Source: Paracoccaceae bacterium (lineage in GTDB: Bacteria; Pseudomonadota; Alphaproteobacteria; Rhodobacterales; Rhodobacteraceae). Taken from it: a DNA stretch of 45,383 nt. The stretch is from contig JAPOOS010000077.1 of assembly GCA_026713305.1 (NCBI GenBank), positions 1-45,383 of the forward strand, written 5' to 3'. The translations under genes were made by a program, and so were the position numbers. The notes below the pieces were generated by a model, which worked only from the letters and a program-made list of their open reading frames with translations, did not search any database and was not told the origin of the DNA. Shown one piece after another: positions 1,487 through 30,016 of the stretch (positions are counted from its first letter, which is position 1; each line of letters begins with the position of its first letter).

Positions 1487-2176
1487 TCACTTGTTGAAAC
1501 TGAGTGCCAGTCGATTTGGCTTGATCGCCGACTTGGACCAGTGGTCAACTACCGACTGCATGAATTCCGGGCAAACAATCTTGGCCCTTTGAACCAACAG
1601 TCCTCCGCTGTCCGACCTTAGATAGAGTCCTTCGGCTGGCCGGTTCGTATAGGTGGAACCCCTCAGATGATCGATGATCGTCGTCAGGCTGTACCTTCCA
1701 CGAGCAATGACGGGCACCTGCACAATGCCCAGCTTGCTGCAAAACGCATCACGACCGGCAACCGACAGGAAGCGCTCCAACTGCCTGTCGTAGACATCGA
1801 ACCCAAGGAACCAGTCCGGCAGTCGGCTATAGGACACAGAGTGCCGGGCGTAGCACCACTCGCCGAACAGTATGTACCGGTCGATCAGCGCATCGAACAA
1901 TGCATCCTCTCGAGGGATGAGCCAATCGTACAGCGTCCGCCATTGTCCCGAATATGGGTGCCTCAGGTATTCGCCTCTGTTCTGAGCCTGCAGGTTCCCA
2001 TTCGAATCAAAGGAAATTCCCAGATTGGCGCCGTCCACCTTTTCCTCGAGCGTGATTTCCCGGTCAAGAAAGGCGAGGCGTTTGCTTGCCGTCAGGACCT
2101 TGTCCTCCCGGACGGTTGCTCCGGGGAGAACCACCAGGTGAGGCGTGGAGGGAAACTTGACGAAGCCGTCCTTCAC
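1487..2176 (-). CDS. RNA ligase family protein (covalent nucleotidyltransferase fold)
   Basis: Ligase motif series: EEKVDGAN (motif I, KxDG), QNRGEYL, ILFGEWCYARHSV (motif III), WFLGFDVYD (IIIa), RPAEGLYLR (IV), VQRAKIV (V). Probable GTG start at 2176 overlaps the upstream gene's TGA (GTGA). Confidence 0.85.
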   Translation of the reverse strand: MKDGFVKFPSTPHLVVLPGATVREDKVLTASKRLAFLDREITLEEKVDGANLGISFDSNGNLQAQNRGEYLRHPYSGQWRTLYDWLIPREDALFDALIDRYILFGEWCYARHSVSYSRLPDWFLGFDVYDRQLERFLSVAGRDAFCSKLGIVQVPVIARGRYSLTTIIDHLRGSTYTNRPAEGLYLRSDSGGLLVQRAKIVCPEFMQSVVDHWSKSAIKPNRLALSFNK

Positions 2177-2700
2177 TTGCCCATCTTGCTGGCGTACTTG
2201 GCTTCGACATACTCGGCACAAAGAAAGCAAACCTCTATGTCGACATCAGCCAGCGCCTCCTTCCATCCCCACCACTTGCTGTCGGTGGCCTGCAGAATGG
2301 GCGGCTTCTCTTCATGGGTGTTGGCCACCGCAACAAATTTGCGGTCGGAAATGTCGAAGTCTTCCAAATCGCGGTGCGACGGAAACTCAACGAACGTATC
2401 GTCCTTTGGATTGATTGGCACTCTTTGCGACTCATCCAGCATCCATCGATAGTCATGAACCCACTTGAAGAAACGATCGCCGATGCTTGGTCCCCAAGAA
2501 TTGAGCTTGTGGCTGTATTCACCATAGATCTCGTTGCCCGCGTCCAGAATCAAGCCTTGAGTATCAATGACGTGCTCGATCGCCTCTACGCATGCCAGTA
2601 TGCAGCAAGGCGGAAAATCGGCATTTGGGTCCGGTTTCATCGCATAGTTTGCCACAATGGGCACATTCGTGTCGACCAGGCACTTGGGCGGCAAGTTCAC
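2173..2700 (-). CDS. PIN-domain-like protein, putative ribonuclease
   Basis: N-terminal CLVDTNVPIVAN, then ILDAGNEIYGEYSHKL, DFDISDRKFVAVAN and ILQATDSKWWGW, which fits the spaced acidic residues of PIN nucleases. GTG start overlaps the ATPase TGA (GTGA at 2700-2697). Confidence 0.75.
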   Translation of the reverse strand: MNLPPKCLVDTNVPIVANYAMKPDPNADFPPCCILACVEAIEHVIDTQGLILDAGNEIYGEYSHKLNSWGPSIGDRFFKWVHDYRWMLDESQRVPINPKDDTFVEFPSHRDLEDFDISDRKFVAVANTHEEKPPILQATDSKWWGWKEALADVDIEVCFLCAEYVEAKYASKMGK

Positions 2701-4121
2701 GCTCCCGACTCCGCATTGGTCTCGCGCTGCATCCGCTTCTTCATGGCCGCCTTGGCCTGATTCAAGATGTCGCCCATCTCGTCACCGAAGAAATCTTTGG
2801 GCCAGTTCTTGATGTTCCCAAATTCGTCCAATTGCAGCGCTTCAAGCTTGGAGGTCGATCCCGAGACGTTGGCGAAGTAGGCGGCCACCTTCTCCGTAGG
2901 CACCCGGTCCTCGGCGATGCGGCGCTGCAGTCGCCGCAGAAAATGTTCCGAATGGGTTTCGATGATCAACTGAATGCCTCTGTCCTTTCCTCCCATTCTG
3001 GAATTGATGACATCGATCATGACGTCGGCCAGAGCAGATTGTGCACTCGGATGAAGATGAATTTCAGGTTGCTCCATGAAGATTATTGAACCTGAAGGTG
3101 CATAGAAACACTGTACCAGCACCGGCAGTACCTGCGATATCCCGAATCCGACGTCAGGGATGTCAGCCCATTTGTTGGAGCCTCTGGTGCGGACCCTGAC
3201 TTCGAACTCCTGTCGATGTTCGGATATTTGAGTGATCTTGAACTCGTCGATCAAGCCCATTTGCATGAGCTTCCGCGCGATGATCTCTTCGAACGGCCTT
3301 TTCACCATGTTGAATCCAAGATTGATTCGGCGGTCTCTTGCGCTAAGCATTGCCGCGACGGTGTTCTCTCCTGCGTATCCGACGCTGTCTGGTTCGAAAC
3401 CGCCCCAGGAATACAGTCTCTCCGCACGTGTCCGCAATGGTCCGAGATAGGAAATCTTGTGGAACAGCTTCTCATGCCACAGATTCAGGAAATGCACGAA
3501 ATCGGCATTCTCATAGTAGGCAAAGATCTCATCGGGAAACCCATAGAACCGGACTGGCGCTCCGACAGACTTGGTGCGACCATGGTAGCGCGTCAGCGGG
3601 TAAAGCTCCGTTTCCACCTCATAAGTGGACTTGGAGCTTGAATCGCGCATCATCCTGATGGCAAGCGAGTCCTCACCTTGGTCAACAAACCGGTACTGCA
3701 GGCGATCCACGATCAGCGAATGCCGCTTTGGATTCAATCCCGCCTGAGCGGCAAAGGCGAGAGTGTCGCCGCAAAACTCCTGTTCCGACAGCGGGTCCAC
3801 AATCTTCAACCTGTTTGGCAGTGACCAGCGATACTCGAAGGCCACCATCCGGTCCGGTTTGTTGCCAAAGACCATGTCGCGATAGGAACCAAGCCGAAAG
3901 GGAGAGTTCACGGTTCCCGGATGGAAAACCGCCTTTCTGTCCGATGATTCTATCGTTTGCTTCAGCATCAGGAGAAAATGGCCGATGCTTGACTTGCCGG
4001 AGCTGTTGGCGCCGAAAAACAACGTGATTGGAGCCATGCGAATGACGCCGGTATCCTGCCAGCCCTTGAAGTTCTGAATTCGCAGTTGGTCTAGCACAGC
4101 AAGTGTCCTCTCAATGAACAT
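2697..4121 (-). CDS. AAA family ATPase, DUF3696-like (OLD/RecF-like)
   Basis: LRIQNFKGWQDTG...ITLFFGANSSGKSS (Walker A), GSIIFMEQPEIHLHPSAQSALADVMID (Walker B), IETHSEHFLRRLQRRI, and a C-terminus LDEFGNIKNWPKDFFGDEMGDI typical of DUF3696 proteins. Start taken as ATG 4121; GTG 4097 is an alternative. Confidence 0.88.
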   Translation of the reverse strand: MFIERTLAVLDQLRIQNFKGWQDTGVIRMAPITLFFGANSSGKSSIGHFLLMLKQTIESSDRKAVFHPGTVNSPFRLGSYRDMVFGNKPDRMVAFEYRWSLPNRLKIVDPLSEQEFCGDTLAFAAQAGLNPKRHSLIVDRLQYRFVDQGEDSLAIRMMRDSSSKSTYEVETELYPLTRYHGRTKSVGAPVRFYGFPDEIFAYYENADFVHFLNLWHEKLFHKISYLGPLRTRAERLYSWGGFEPDSVGYAGENTVAAMLSARDRRINLGFNMVKRPFEEIIARKLMQMGLIDEFKITQISEHRQEFEVRVRTRGSNKWADIPDVGFGISQVLPVLVQCFYAPSGSIIFMEQPEIHLHPSAQSALADVMIDVINSRMGGKDRGIQLIIETHSEHFLRRLQRRIAEDRVPTEKVAAYFANVSGSTSKLEALQLDEFGNIKNWPKDFFGDEMGDILNQAKAAMKKRMQRETNAESGA

Positions 4122-5496: not shown

Positions 5497-7305
5497 CTAT
5501 GCAATTGCAGAAGCGCCGGAACTCGCCGACCCAACGTTGCTTCGGAAGTTCTCGAACAAATCCCGCCAAGGGAGATCGTGCGCTGGAAGAGGGGGCTTTG
5601 CATCGGCCCGCAACGCTGCGCCTGGCGATGTCACGTCAATTGTCCCGGCATCGCAATCGAGCCGAAGGATGTCGCCGTCCGCAAGCTTGGCGAGAAGTCC
5701 GCTCTCGGCAGCTTCCGGCGACACGTGGATTGCCGCCGGCACCTTGCCTGATGCCCCTGACATGCGCCCGTCGGTCACAAGGGCAACCTTGATGCCCCTG
5801 TCAAGCAGCGAGGAAAGCAATGGGGTCAGCGAATGCAGTTCCGGCATGCCGTTGAACTTGGGCCCCTGAAACCGCACAACGACAACGCAGTCCGAGCGAA
5901 ACTCGCCTGCGGCAAACGCTTCCTTGACGGCATTCTGGTCGGAAAACACACGCGCCGGCGCCTCGATCTTGCCGTGTTCCGGCTTGACGGCGGAAACCTT
6001 GATCAGGGCTCGGCCGAGATTGCCCTCCAACAGCCGAATGCCTCCATTTGCCGCAAAGGGCCTGTCGGCGGCGCGGACAATGGATTCGTTGAGGGAATCC
6101 CTGGCCGATGCCTCCCAATGAACGGCGCCATCCACAAGCCGCGGTTCCGTGGCATACTTTGCAAGCCCTCGCCCGTGCACCGTTTCGACGTCCTCGTGGA
6201 GCAAACCTTCCGACAGCAGCTCGGCAAAAACAAATCCGAGGCCGCCCGCGGCATGGAATTGATTCACGTCCGCCAGACCGTTTGGATAGACACGCGCCAG
6301 CAGCGGCACAACACCCGACAGATCGCTGAAATCCTCCAGCTCGATGCAGATGCCGGCCGCTCGGGCCATGGCGGTCATGTGAATGACCAGATTGGTGGAC
6401 CCGCCCGTGGCCATCAGCCCGACCATGCCGTTCACGAAGGCCCTTTCGCTCAACAACCTGCCAATCGGACGATATCGATTGCCAAGCGCCGTCAAGGACA
6501 GAACGCGCCTGACACCGACTGCGGTCAACTCACGGCGCAGCGGCGTGCCGGGATTGACGAAGGAAGTTCCGGGGAGATGCAGACCCATGAATTCCATCAG
6601 CATCTGGTTGGAATTCGCGGTGCCGTAGAAGGTGCATGTGCCGGGACCATGATAGGCCGCCATTTCAGCCTTCATCAGCTCGTCGCGGCCAATCTTGCCG
6701 GCAGCGAAGTCCTGTCGCTTGCGGGCCTTTTCGTCGTTCGTCATGCCCGACGTCATTGGGCCCGCCGGCAGAAATATGCCGGGCAGATGCCCAAACTTGG
6801 CCGCGGCGATGACCAATCCGGGAACAATCTTGTCGCAGACGCCCAGATAGGCAACGGCATCGTAGGTGTTGTGCGAAAGCGCGACGGCCGCCGCCAGGGC
6901 GATGACGTCTCTGGAAAACAGCGAAAGCTCCATGCCCGGCTGCCCCTGGGTTACACCGTCGCACATGGCGGGAACGCCGCCGGCAACCTGCGCCGTTGCA
7001 CCGAAGCCGCTGGCGGCTTCCCTTATCAGCTGGGGATAGTCTTCATATGGCTGGTGTGCGGAAAGCATGTCGTTGTAGGCCGTCACAATGCCCAGATTTG
7101 GCGCCGCTCCCTCCGCAAGCCGGAGTTTGGAGCTGCCGGAAGCGGCATAGGCATGCGCCTGATTGCCGCAAGCGAGGTGTGCCCTTGCCGGACGGGTTTC
7201 CGCCATCCGCTCAATGGAGTCGAGGTAGCGAGCGCGCGCCGGGAGACTGCGCCGGACAATGCGCGATGTCACAGCCGCGACGGTTTCGTTGAGCGGTGAA
7301 CTCAT
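5497..7305 (-). CDS. edd: Phosphogluconate dehydratase
   Basis: 602 aa of the IlvD/Edd family: NLGIVTAYNDMLSAHQPYEDYP, VPAMCDGVTQGQPGMELSLFSRD, GPGTCTFYGTANSNQM, LMATGGSTNLVIH, VALVTDGRMSGASGKVPAAIHVSPEA. Confidence 0.95.
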   Translation of the reverse strand: MSSPLNETVAAVTSRIVRRSLPARARYLDSIERMAETRPARAHLACGNQAHAYAASGSSKLRLAEGAAPNLGIVTAYNDMLSAHQPYEDYPQLIREAASGFGATAQVAGGVPAMCDGVTQGQPGMELSLFSRDVIALAAAVALSHNTYDAVAYLGVCDKIVPGLVIAAAKFGHLPGIFLPAGPMTSGMTNDEKARKRQDFAAGKIGRDELMKAEMAAYHGPGTCTFYGTANSNQMLMEFMGLHLPGTSFVNPGTPLRRELTAVGVRRVLSLTALGNRYRPIGRLLSERAFVNGMVGLMATGGSTNLVIHMTAMARAAGICIELEDFSDLSGVVPLLARVYPNGLADVNQFHAAGGLGFVFAELLSEGLLHEDVETVHGRGLAKYATEPRLVDGAVHWEASARDSLNESIVRAADRPFAANGGIRLLEGNLGRALIKVSAVKPEHGKIEAPARVFSDQNAVKEAFAAGEFRSDCVVVVRFQGPKFNGMPELHSLTPLLSSLLDRGIKVALVTDGRMSGASGKVPAAIHVSPEAAESGLLAKLADGDILRLDCDAGTIDVTSPGAALRADAKPPLPAHDLPWRDLFENFRSNVGSASSGASAIA

Positions 7306-7686
7306 GGGTTAGACTCTGAATTGGCCATTTGAATTCCGGAATCTCCTGTTTTCAAGCCAATGAGGAAGCTGTTGCGGCGACTCCCGCCACGCTTCGTGAA
7401 GTTGCAGGACGCTGGAAACTCCGAATTCGCATGTGAATGTGAAGATTTCGAGACACGACTTGCAGAAAAGTTGGAGCACAAGTTTATTTCCGTCCCTCAA
7501 TCGAATAAAGCTGCAGACGGTTGGGTCGCAGCCGACCCAAACTCGCCGATCGGTCGGCTCCGCGTCGGCCGACATGTCCTTCCGCGTTGCAGATTTCGCT
7601 GCCATCGCGGAATGCGAGAATTCGAAAGCCAGCGCCGCAAATTCGGCGCTGTCGTCACCAATCGCGCAGTTGAGGCGAAACGGGAT

Positions 7687-9435
7687 ATGGTCCAGGGTTC
7701 AAAGTCGCTCATCAGCATCGACGGTGGCTCCATCAAGCGGATTACCGCTCTTTCCTTGTGCGCCATAGTGATTGGACTGGTTTCAGCCTTGGCTGCAATT
7801 GCCTTTGTCGACGCGGTGGGCTTGCTAAACCGAATTCTTCTGATATCGCCCCGCGCCCGTGTCCAGTACGAGAGCATACCCTATCTCGTGGAAGCCGCAA
7901 CTCTCCTGGTCCCGACTGCCGGCGGCCTTGTGGTTGGGCTTCTCCTGCTGCGCGTGTCGCCGGAACGTCGGCCGGTGGGGCCGGCCGAGGTGATCAAGTC
8001 GACGCAGTTGGGCACGCCTCTGCCGGATTTGCGAACCGGGCTTGTATCGACGGCGGCGGCGATTCTTTCGCTTGGGGCCGGGGCCTCGGTTGGCCAGTTC
8101 GGTCCTGTCGTCTACCTTGGCGCGCTTGTGGGAAACTTTGCCCGCAAGCTGCAGATCGACGTAAAGGCGTTGCCGACAATGGCGGTGGCGTGCGGCGTGG
8201 CGGCAGCCATGTCGGCGGCGTTCAACGCGCCCATCGCCGGCTTGGTGTTTGCCCACGAAGTGGTGCTTCGTCACTACTCGCTAAGGGCCTTTTCGCTGAC
8301 CACAATTGCCGCCGCCATGGGCTATGTGGTGACCAACATCATATTCGACCGACCTGCCTTGTTCCTGGTGAGCTTTGAAGGCGTCGGTTTCGGGCACGAA
8401 TTCGCGCTGTTCGCCCTGCTGGGGGCGCTGTCCGCGGTGATCGCCATGGCGCTGATGAAGCTCGTCATGTTCAGCGGCCGCATTGCCGCATCCCTGCCGG
8501 TGTTCCCGCCGCTGCGCACGGCCTGCGCAGGGCTGGCGGTCGGGCTGACGGCCCTCTGGCTGCCGGACGTGCTGGGAATTGGCTCGGCGGCGCTGAGATT
8601 CGCCACGATTGAAGGCGCCTTCGAGGCGAACGAGCTTCTCGTCCTCGTGGTCGCCAAGATCGTGCTGACGGCAATTTGCCTGGGCTTTGGATTCGCAGGG
8701 GGGATTTTCAGTCCATCGCTGTTGATCGGCATCATGTTCGGCGCGTTCTTCTGGAGCGTTCTGGACTCGACCCAGTCGATCGCCAATTCGGGAGTGGTCG
8801 CCTACGCCATATGCGGAATGATGGCAATTGCCAGTCCGGTGATGGGGGCGCCCCTCACGGTCATTCTCATAGTGTTCGAACTGACGCGCAACTACGACCT
8901 GACCATCGGAGCCATGGTTGCCGTTGTGGCCTCGAATCTCATTTCGTTTCGAATCTTCGGGCGGTCGCTTTTCGACGTTGTGTTGAAGAAGCAGGGCATC
9001 GATCTTTCGCAGGGGCGGGAATTCGCGCGGCTGGCGGCAGTTCGGGTGGTCGAATACGCCAACGACGACTTTCCCCGGGCGCAGGAGGACGTCACCGCAG
9101 GGGAGTTGCGCCACAGGCTGACGTCGGGAAAGTGGAACGAGGCTTTCGTTGAGAACAGCGAGGGGCAATTCCTGGGAAAGATTTATGGCAGGGATCTACA
9201 CGCCGATTCGGCCTCGACATCACGCGACGTCCTGCACTCGGCGGGACTCGTGTACTCGGAGAAAACCACGATCTTTCAGGCCATGCAGTCGCTTGCCGAC
9301 TTTGTTGGCGACGCTGTGCCAATTGTGGATTCGAAGACCGGGAAACTGCTCGGCGTTGTCACCGAGTCGGCAATCATCGTGGCGTATCTTGAACTTGTCC
9401 ACGACATTCGGCGCGAAGAACATGCGCCTGTTTAG
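7687..9435 (+). CDS. CLC-family chloride channel/transporter with C-terminal CBS domains
   Basis: GAGASVGQFGPVVYLGA, AAMSAAFNAPIAGLVFAHEVV, GFGFAGGIFSPSLLIGIMFGA, SPVMGAPLTVILIVFELTRNYD; C-terminal CBS-like repeats. ORF opens at 7360, but the protein is recognisable from ATG 7687. Confidence 0.88.
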   Translation: MVQGSKSLISIDGGSIKRITALSLCAIVIGLVSALAAIAFVDAVGLLNRILLISPRARVQYESIPYLVEAATLLVPTAGGLVVGLLLLRVSPERRPVGPAEVIKSTQLGTPLPDLRTGLVSTAAAILSLGAGASVGQFGPVVYLGALVGNFARKLQIDVKALPTMAVACGVAAAMSAAFNAPIAGLVFAHEVVLRHYSLRAFSLTTIAAAMGYVVTNIIFDRPALFLVSFEGVGFGHEFALFALLGALSAVIAMALMKLVMFSGRIAASLPVFPPLRTACAGLAVGLTALWLPDVLGIGSAALRFATIEGAFEANELLVLVVAKIVLTAICLGFGFAGGIFSPSLLIGIMFGAFFWSVLDSTQSIANSGVVAYAICGMMAIASPVMGAPLTVILIVFELTRNYDLTIGAMVAVVASNLISFRIFGRSLFDVVLKKQGIDLSQGREFARLAAVRVVEYANDDFPRAQEDVTAGELRHRLTSGKWNEAFVENSEGQFLGKIYGRDLHADSASTSRDVLHSAGLVYSEKTTIFQAMQSLADFVGDAVPIVDSKTGKLLGVVTESAIIVAYLELVHDIRREEHAPV

Positions 9436-29695: not shown

Positions 29696-29770
29696 GGGTG
29701 ATTAGCTCAGTGGTAGAGCGCTTCGTTCACACCGAAGAGGTCGGGAGTTCGAACCTCTCATCACCCACCA
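29696..29770 (+). tRNA. tRNA-Val (anticodon CAC)
   Basis: GGGTGAT/ATCACCC acceptor stem, CTTCG-TTCACAC-CGAAG anticodon arm, GGTTCGAA-type T arm (GAGTTCGAACCTC), encoded CCA. Confidence 0.95.
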
Positions 29771-29941
29771 TTTCCCTGTTCGATTGCCGGTCCCGACGCT
29801 GCAACGGCAGACGCCCGGTTTCGGGAGAAGTTCGAAGCGGCCCGTTGTTCCTGGCATGCAGCTGAAAGTCGGCCATGGGATGAAACGGGAATTGCCAAGT
29901 CTCGCAATTGCTTGCCTTGGTTGTGGCGTTACGCCTTTAGG

Positions 29942-30016
29942 GGGTGATTAGCTCAGCGGTAGAGCACTTCGTTTACACCGAAGGGGTCGGGAGTTCGAGC
30001 CTCTCATCACCCACCA
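29942..30016 (+). tRNA. tRNA-Val (anticodon TAC)
   Basis: GGGTGAT/ATCACCC acceptor stem, CTTCG-TTTACAC-CGAAG anticodon arm, T arm GAGTTCGAGCCTC, encoded CCA. Five differences from the preceding tRNA-Val. Confidence 0.95.

Follow-up and report, generated by a model that had tools for sequence, protein, structure and literature searches.

The window, the whole stretch of 45,383 nucleotides that was analyzed, was found to contain an operon of three genes in tandem, coding for an OLD/ABC-type ATPase, a PIN-like protein, and an RNA ligase (Table 1). The sequence-only reading of this DNA had described three tightly packed minus-strand ORFs, and these were confirmed, with GTGA overlaps at both junctions: the GTG start codon of the PIN gene at 2700 lies within the stop of the ATPase gene, and that of the ligase gene at 2176 overlaps the PIN stop. 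The gene products named in that reading were likewise recovered. In the ATPase, described there as a DUF3696-like AAA protein, both Walker A (GANSSGKSS) and Walker B (IIFMEQPEIH) were found, followed by an ETHSE switch, and Pfam matches were obtained to AAA_15 (E = 4e-24), AAA_21 (5e-20), and DUF3696 (3.2e-9, above the cut-off). A promoter scan gave nothing above chance.

Table 1. Coordinates of the operon, its genes, and a tRNA gene pair in the window
Feature	Coordinates	Strand	Remarks
ATPase, OLD/ABC-type with DUF3696 tail, 474 aa	4121-2697	minus	start ATG; PADLOC HEC-03B
Probable PIN-like nuclease, divergent, 175 aa	2700-2173	minus	start GTG; PADLOC HEC-03A
RNA ligase, nucleotidyltransferase (NTase)-only, 229 aa	2176-1487	minus	start GTG; PF09414
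Operon, three genes in tandem (ATPase, PIN, ligase)	1487-4121	minus	
Two tRNA-Val genes, 171 bases apart	29696-30016		anticodons cac, tac

The RNA ligase, first noticed by its KVDGAN motif, matched PF09414 (E = 1.4e-31) and contains the motifs EEKxDGAN (I; EEKVDGAN in the window), FGEW (III), FDVYD (IIIa), EG (IV), and RAK (V). Residues E45, K46, D48, G49, G105, E106, D127, E182, G183, and K199 were invariant across 42 sequences. The AlphaFold model (pLDDT 93.1) ends shortly past motif V, and its Foldseek neighbors were archaeal PAB1020, REL1, T4 Rnl2, and a Naegleria ligase (E of about 1e-7). By NTase motifs and fold, the protein is therefore a member of the ATP-dependent RNA ligases (PF09414). 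It shares these motifs and this fold with T4 RNA ligase 2, the RNA editing ligase, and the archaeal and Naegleria RNA ligases, but is only 229 aa long, has no accessory domain, and is about 13 to 22% identical to solved RNA ligases. The C-terminal domain of the T4 Rnl2 family proper was not found in it; in T4 Rnl2, this domain is needed to seal 5'-phosphate ends. Because the domain is absent, the ligase, in its model a nucleotidyltransferase domain alone, may seal only pre-adenylated ends or may need a partner.

The PIN-like protein of the window gave no significant Pfam match, and PIN_3 was matched weakly by 4 of 55 relatives. CLVDTNVPI and DISDRK, on which the original assignment was based, were both found. 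The AlphaFold model had a pLDDT of 96.9, and its top PDB neighbors in Foldseek were mostly PIN or VapC proteins (1y82, VapC11, the Rrp44 PIN domain, and Shigella VapC) at weak E values of 0.15 to 0.5. With this structural model, assignment of the HEC-03A-like protein to the PIN superfamily is probable. The acidic residues D10, E61, D116, D119, and D140 (window numbering) were kept in almost all of 93 relatives, the exceptions being L018, L007, L096, and the incomplete L048, and the full set of D10, E61, D119, and D140 was present in 52 of the 53 loci with a ligase and in nearly all of the remaining ones. On a divergent branch (G311, G340, G353, and G357), DTN, E-Y, D-RK, and the later D were still present. 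Loci of this branch (L144 to L147, L168, and L169), scoring 53 to 76 bits, kept the ATPase and, in all except L146, the close ligase; evolution therefore seems to be more rapid in PIN than in the ligase.

Two of the three proteins matched an already-named candidate system in PADLOC-DB 2.0.0 (copy of 2023). By hmmscan, the ATPase matched HEC-03B (E = 6.4e-126, profile positions 2 to 456 of 458), with PDC-M55A (2e-56) and NsnB (6e-56) as runners-up, and the PIN-like protein matched HEC-03A (E = 8.3e-25, positions 3 to 154 of 159), as did 55 of 55 aligned PIN relatives. Both features of HEC-03, an HEC-03B ATPase and an adjoining HEC-03A protein, were thus present, and no PADLOC model matched the RNA ligase at E up to 1. 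HECs are Hma-embedded candidates discovered via guilt-by-embedding; several, including HEC-06, were reported to be active, and HEC-03 was not named in that connection (PMC12988326). A 2026 survey of BREX found OLD-ABC proteins paired with HNH, PD-(D/E)XK, or PIN nucleases inside BREX (PMC12839542). Its OLD-ABC and PIN-endoRNase modules are the same class of pair, set within BREX operons, and the word ligase is absent from its text. The trio differs from HEC-03 by the added RNA ligase, and its relatives are embedded also in BREX and upstream of a type III restriction-modification (RM) pair. Judged by sequence similarity, the operon would be a version of HEC-03, a candidate anti-phage system, to which a ligase has been added, and HEC-03 would thereby gain a third component unlisted in its PADLOC 2.0.0 annotation. 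The earlier suggestion that the trio was undescribed did not hold for the ATPase and PIN pair. The ligase appears in neither source: as far as PADLOC 2.0.0 and PMC12839542 show, the pair is an already-named candidate and what is new is its third gene, a dedicated RNA ligase, with earlier notice elsewhere possible.

The G+C content of the operon was ~53 to 57%, compared with 58 to 63% in adjacent bins, consistent with horizontal acquisition. No ATPase homologue was found in a same-genus genome (G711), and an HEC-03-like ATPase adjoining a PIN gene occurred in 3 of 101 genomes of the family (the window's own, G444, and G744), a patchy presence typical of acquired defense genes. The trio lay among PglX, BrxH, and/or PglZ of BREX in L020, L024, L027, L029, and L035, and BrxH followed it in G360 and G371. 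In L019, the ATPase and PIN genes were followed by BrxH without a ligase, and in L094, a type III RM pair, methyltransferase and then restriction enzyme, lay downstream of the trio. On the Acinetobacter soli plasmid pAS843-2 (L015, positions 5627 to 8284), the ATPase gene, annotated as two ORFs, and the PIN gene were accompanied by an HNH_2 gene at the place taken elsewhere by the ligase; this pair lay downstream of an annotated helicase and N-6 DNA methylase, consistent with Hma. The embedding in other defense loci supports an association of the trio with anti-phage defense and bears out the proximity to defense genes that had been proposed as a check.

To define the linkage of the ligase, PIN loci from 80 genome loci, three viral contigs, and plasmid and whole-genome PIN matches were assembled and their neighbors classified. 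The 80 genome loci were chosen by PIN-profile similarity, and the ligase-bearing share of 57% is therefore no census figure. Across L018 to L100, ATPase, PIN, and ligase were found together in 40 loci, ATPase and PIN in 35, PIN and ligase in 7, and PIN alone in 1 (L048, lacking the active-site residues). On the PIN tree, a rapid reconstruction in which several branches are weak, 54 of 94 loci carried the ligase, all within one clade of 66 that included 12 loci without it; 10 changes of ligase state were needed, against 29.4 in shuffles. In an unbiased sample of 399 genomes of the phylum, PIN was found in 15 and the ligase subfamily (profile score of at least 258 bits, all other ligases found scoring at most 185) in 11, the window's genome included, and the ligase stood directly behind PIN in 11/11 of these (10/10 without the window's own). 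Among 289 genomes of the class, the subfamily was found in 5 besides the window's own: 4, of which three belong to a single genus, have it as part of the trio, and 1 has it as an orphan (G210). Apart from this orphan, every subfamily ligase was adjoined by a PIN gene, with a median distance of -1 nt from PIN stop to ligase start. The orphan (L114, positions 6703 to 7386) has intact motifs and lies between RsmB-like and hydrolase-like genes, with no PIN or ATPase nearby.

Pairwise distances computed for PIN, for the ligase, and for the ATPase were correlated with one another (Mantel rho 0.74, 0.82, and 0.73; permutation maxima 0.32, 0.24, and 0.32), indicating that the operon moves as a unit, and the three-gene arrangement recurs in many phyla and is therefore not due to chance. 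Confinement to one clade, together with PIN adjacency in the 399-genome sample, ruled out the ligase as a chance neighbor. The ligase is a dedicated component of the PIN setting and nearly exclusive to it. The ligase nearly always adjoins PIN, whereas about 40% of PIN loci (38 of 92 classifiable) have no ligase.

These ligase-less loci, and the HNH gene in the A. soli plasmid, would fit a modular third slot in which the ligase is an accessory, the ATPase and PIN defending alone and the ligase having a side role, for example, in resisting phage counter-measures. However, HNH was encountered in no more than a single plasmid type, and the position of the ligase behind PIN in many phyla, the co-varying distances, and its near exclusivity to this setting make this quite unlikely. 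A universal alternative third gene was also rejected, the downstream ORFs of ligase-less loci being mostly unrelated (e.g., NIPSNAP in a Poribacterium). In Poribacteria (L064, L066, L073, L080, L082, and L091), a 217-aa ORF lay 3' of the two-gene form on several contigs at near-constant spacing; in L064, the contig tested, this ORF is a NIPSNAP gene and probably a chromosomal neighbor. The trio was present on three IMG/VR contigs. A phage-borne origin was rejected, with phage ligases merely 25 to 30% identical and no PIN homologue among 50,697 phage records. The Pantoea copy (L040, from Pantoea piersonii) had no match in E. coli genomes.

The best explanation of the operon appears to be an RNase that is gated by the ATPase and comes with its own resealing enzyme, that is, a reversible RNA-cleaving immunity, which we consider about equally prone to be right or wrong. 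It builds on the gene identities, the conservation of the active sites, the dedication of the ligase, and the embedding in defense loci; from there we infer the trigger, the RNA target, the activity of PIN, and the action of the ligase on PIN products. The OLD-type ATPase would serve as sensor and gate and, upon infection, would license or release PIN, which would then cut an RNA, most likely tRNA or another RNA of translation. The co-encoded ligase would reseal these cuts, which could limit leak damage in uninfected cells or permit recovery once the alarm ends. PIN enzymes are expected to leave 5'-phosphate and 3'-OH ends via a two-metal mechanism, and these are the ends joined by this ligase class. 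The expected chemistry yields a sharp prediction, namely, products with 5'-phosphate and 3'-OH ends. RNA-cleaving immunity is usually seen as one-way and abortive; bacteria may carry an immune system able to cut RNA and mend the cut, and a widespread, dedicated ligase behind an immune RNase would render host-encoded reversal of immune RNA damage directly testable.

The mechanism, with the ATPase gating PIN and the ligase resealing, is suggested by analogy with PARIS (AriA/AriB), which likewise combines an ABC/OLD-type ATPase with a nuclease and in which tRNA is cut under ATPase control by AriB, a metal-dependent enzyme whose products have 3'-OH and 5'-phosphate ends (PMC12409363). The window nuclease is PIN-like rather than Toprim, however, and the trio adds a ligase; the match of the window ATPase to AriA (E = 4.5e-26) was far weaker than that to HEC-03B, and no Toprim nuclease of the AriB type was found in the trio with Pfam, PADLOC, or Foldseek. 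For VapC PIN toxins, the products were treated as 5'-OH in one paper (PMC6459853), and such ends would count against resealing because joining them would require a kinase besides the ligase. The trio also did not conform to a VapBC type II toxin-antitoxin, there being no PIN Pfam match and the upstream gene coding for a 474-aa ATPase and not a small VapB. Nor did it qualify as Septu or as the PtuA of retron Ec78, for which the ATPase scored 22 bits against a curated cut-off of 500 and a PtuB-type HNH partner was absent from the trio. As with PrrC and T4 Pnkp-Rnl1, a defense nuclease would cut RNA and an RNA ligase would reseal it; there, however, the repair enzymes are owned by the phage, whereas here the ligase lies in the operon of the nuclease itself and without an end-healing enzyme.

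The sequence-only reading had gone on to suggest a toxin encoded with its own repair or immunity enzyme. As a strict antidote, the ligase was rejected: about 40% of the loci keep PIN, nearly always with intact residues, without it, and no ligase remnants were found by tblastn in the ligase-less loci checked, among them each of the 12 that fall within the ligase clade. Since it is missing from so many loci, one of them BREX-associated (L019), the ligase is dispensable and not an obligatory antidote, and because ligase-less forms thrive, it is read as a moderator or recovery factor. A toxin plus repair remains a plausible hypothesis. It was also considered that the ligase might be offensive, misjoining PIN-cut ends (tRNA halves to other RNAs, or into circles) so that damage becomes irreversible or phage repair futile. 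Unusual substrate use of this kind would fit the tight PIN-ligase linkage and the absent C-terminal domain, but we know of no precedent for such an RNA ligase, and the persistence of ligase-less systems suggests that cleavage alone is enough, leaving this reading very improbable.

Seven Aquabacterium-like Burkholderiales loci (L061, L067, L069, L077, L083, L089, and L092) contained PIN and ligase without the ATPase, with the acidic residues of PIN kept. In L067 and L089, read ORF by ORF, the immediate neighbor of the pair is a GspA-like gene, with a cyanophycin-synthetase-like gene and an amidohydrolase-like ORF close by. A search of four of these genomes in full gave no ATPase match in two and only distant matches in two (E = 1e-10 and 6e-4). 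A vertical core function in Burkholderiales was ruled out by the sporadic occurrence of the intact ligase subfamily, in 5 of 151 genomes of the family. The pair looks like a domesticated derivative, and its retention without the ATPase in seven loci argues that PIN and ligase share a substrate.

The maintenance of this pair at a single position on the chromosome, surrounded by housekeeping genes, along with the orphan ligase, could also point to an RNA-repair system. RNA-repair systems were reportedly surveyed by Burroughs and Aravind in 2016, and this setting of the ligase may already have been noted there. In a repair system, the ATPase would sense damaged RNA or the arrival of an anticodon nuclease, PIN would trim or open the damaged RNA, and the ligase would rejoin it, so that translation is protected while phages attack or toxins act, much as T4 ligases mend anticodon-nuclease damage (cited in PMC12409363). 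Against this, ATPase and PIN without ligase are common, with PIN active-site residues mostly intact, which makes little sense for repair only; the trio showed neither a kinase nor a phosphatase for end healing; and the loci are embedded in defense systems. Repair alone is therefore considered unlikely. A tentative extension of reversible cut-and-mend immunity, put at somewhat below even likelihood, is a bacterial immune module that combines an RNA-cutting effector with its own resealing ligase and whose PIN-ligase pair is usable even without the sensor ATPase. On plasmids of Pseudomonas, Variovorax, and Bosea (L110, L112, and L113), an AAA-family ATPase gene comes after a more distant ligase (about 31 to 34% identity), and the two may constitute a separate RNA-repair pair.
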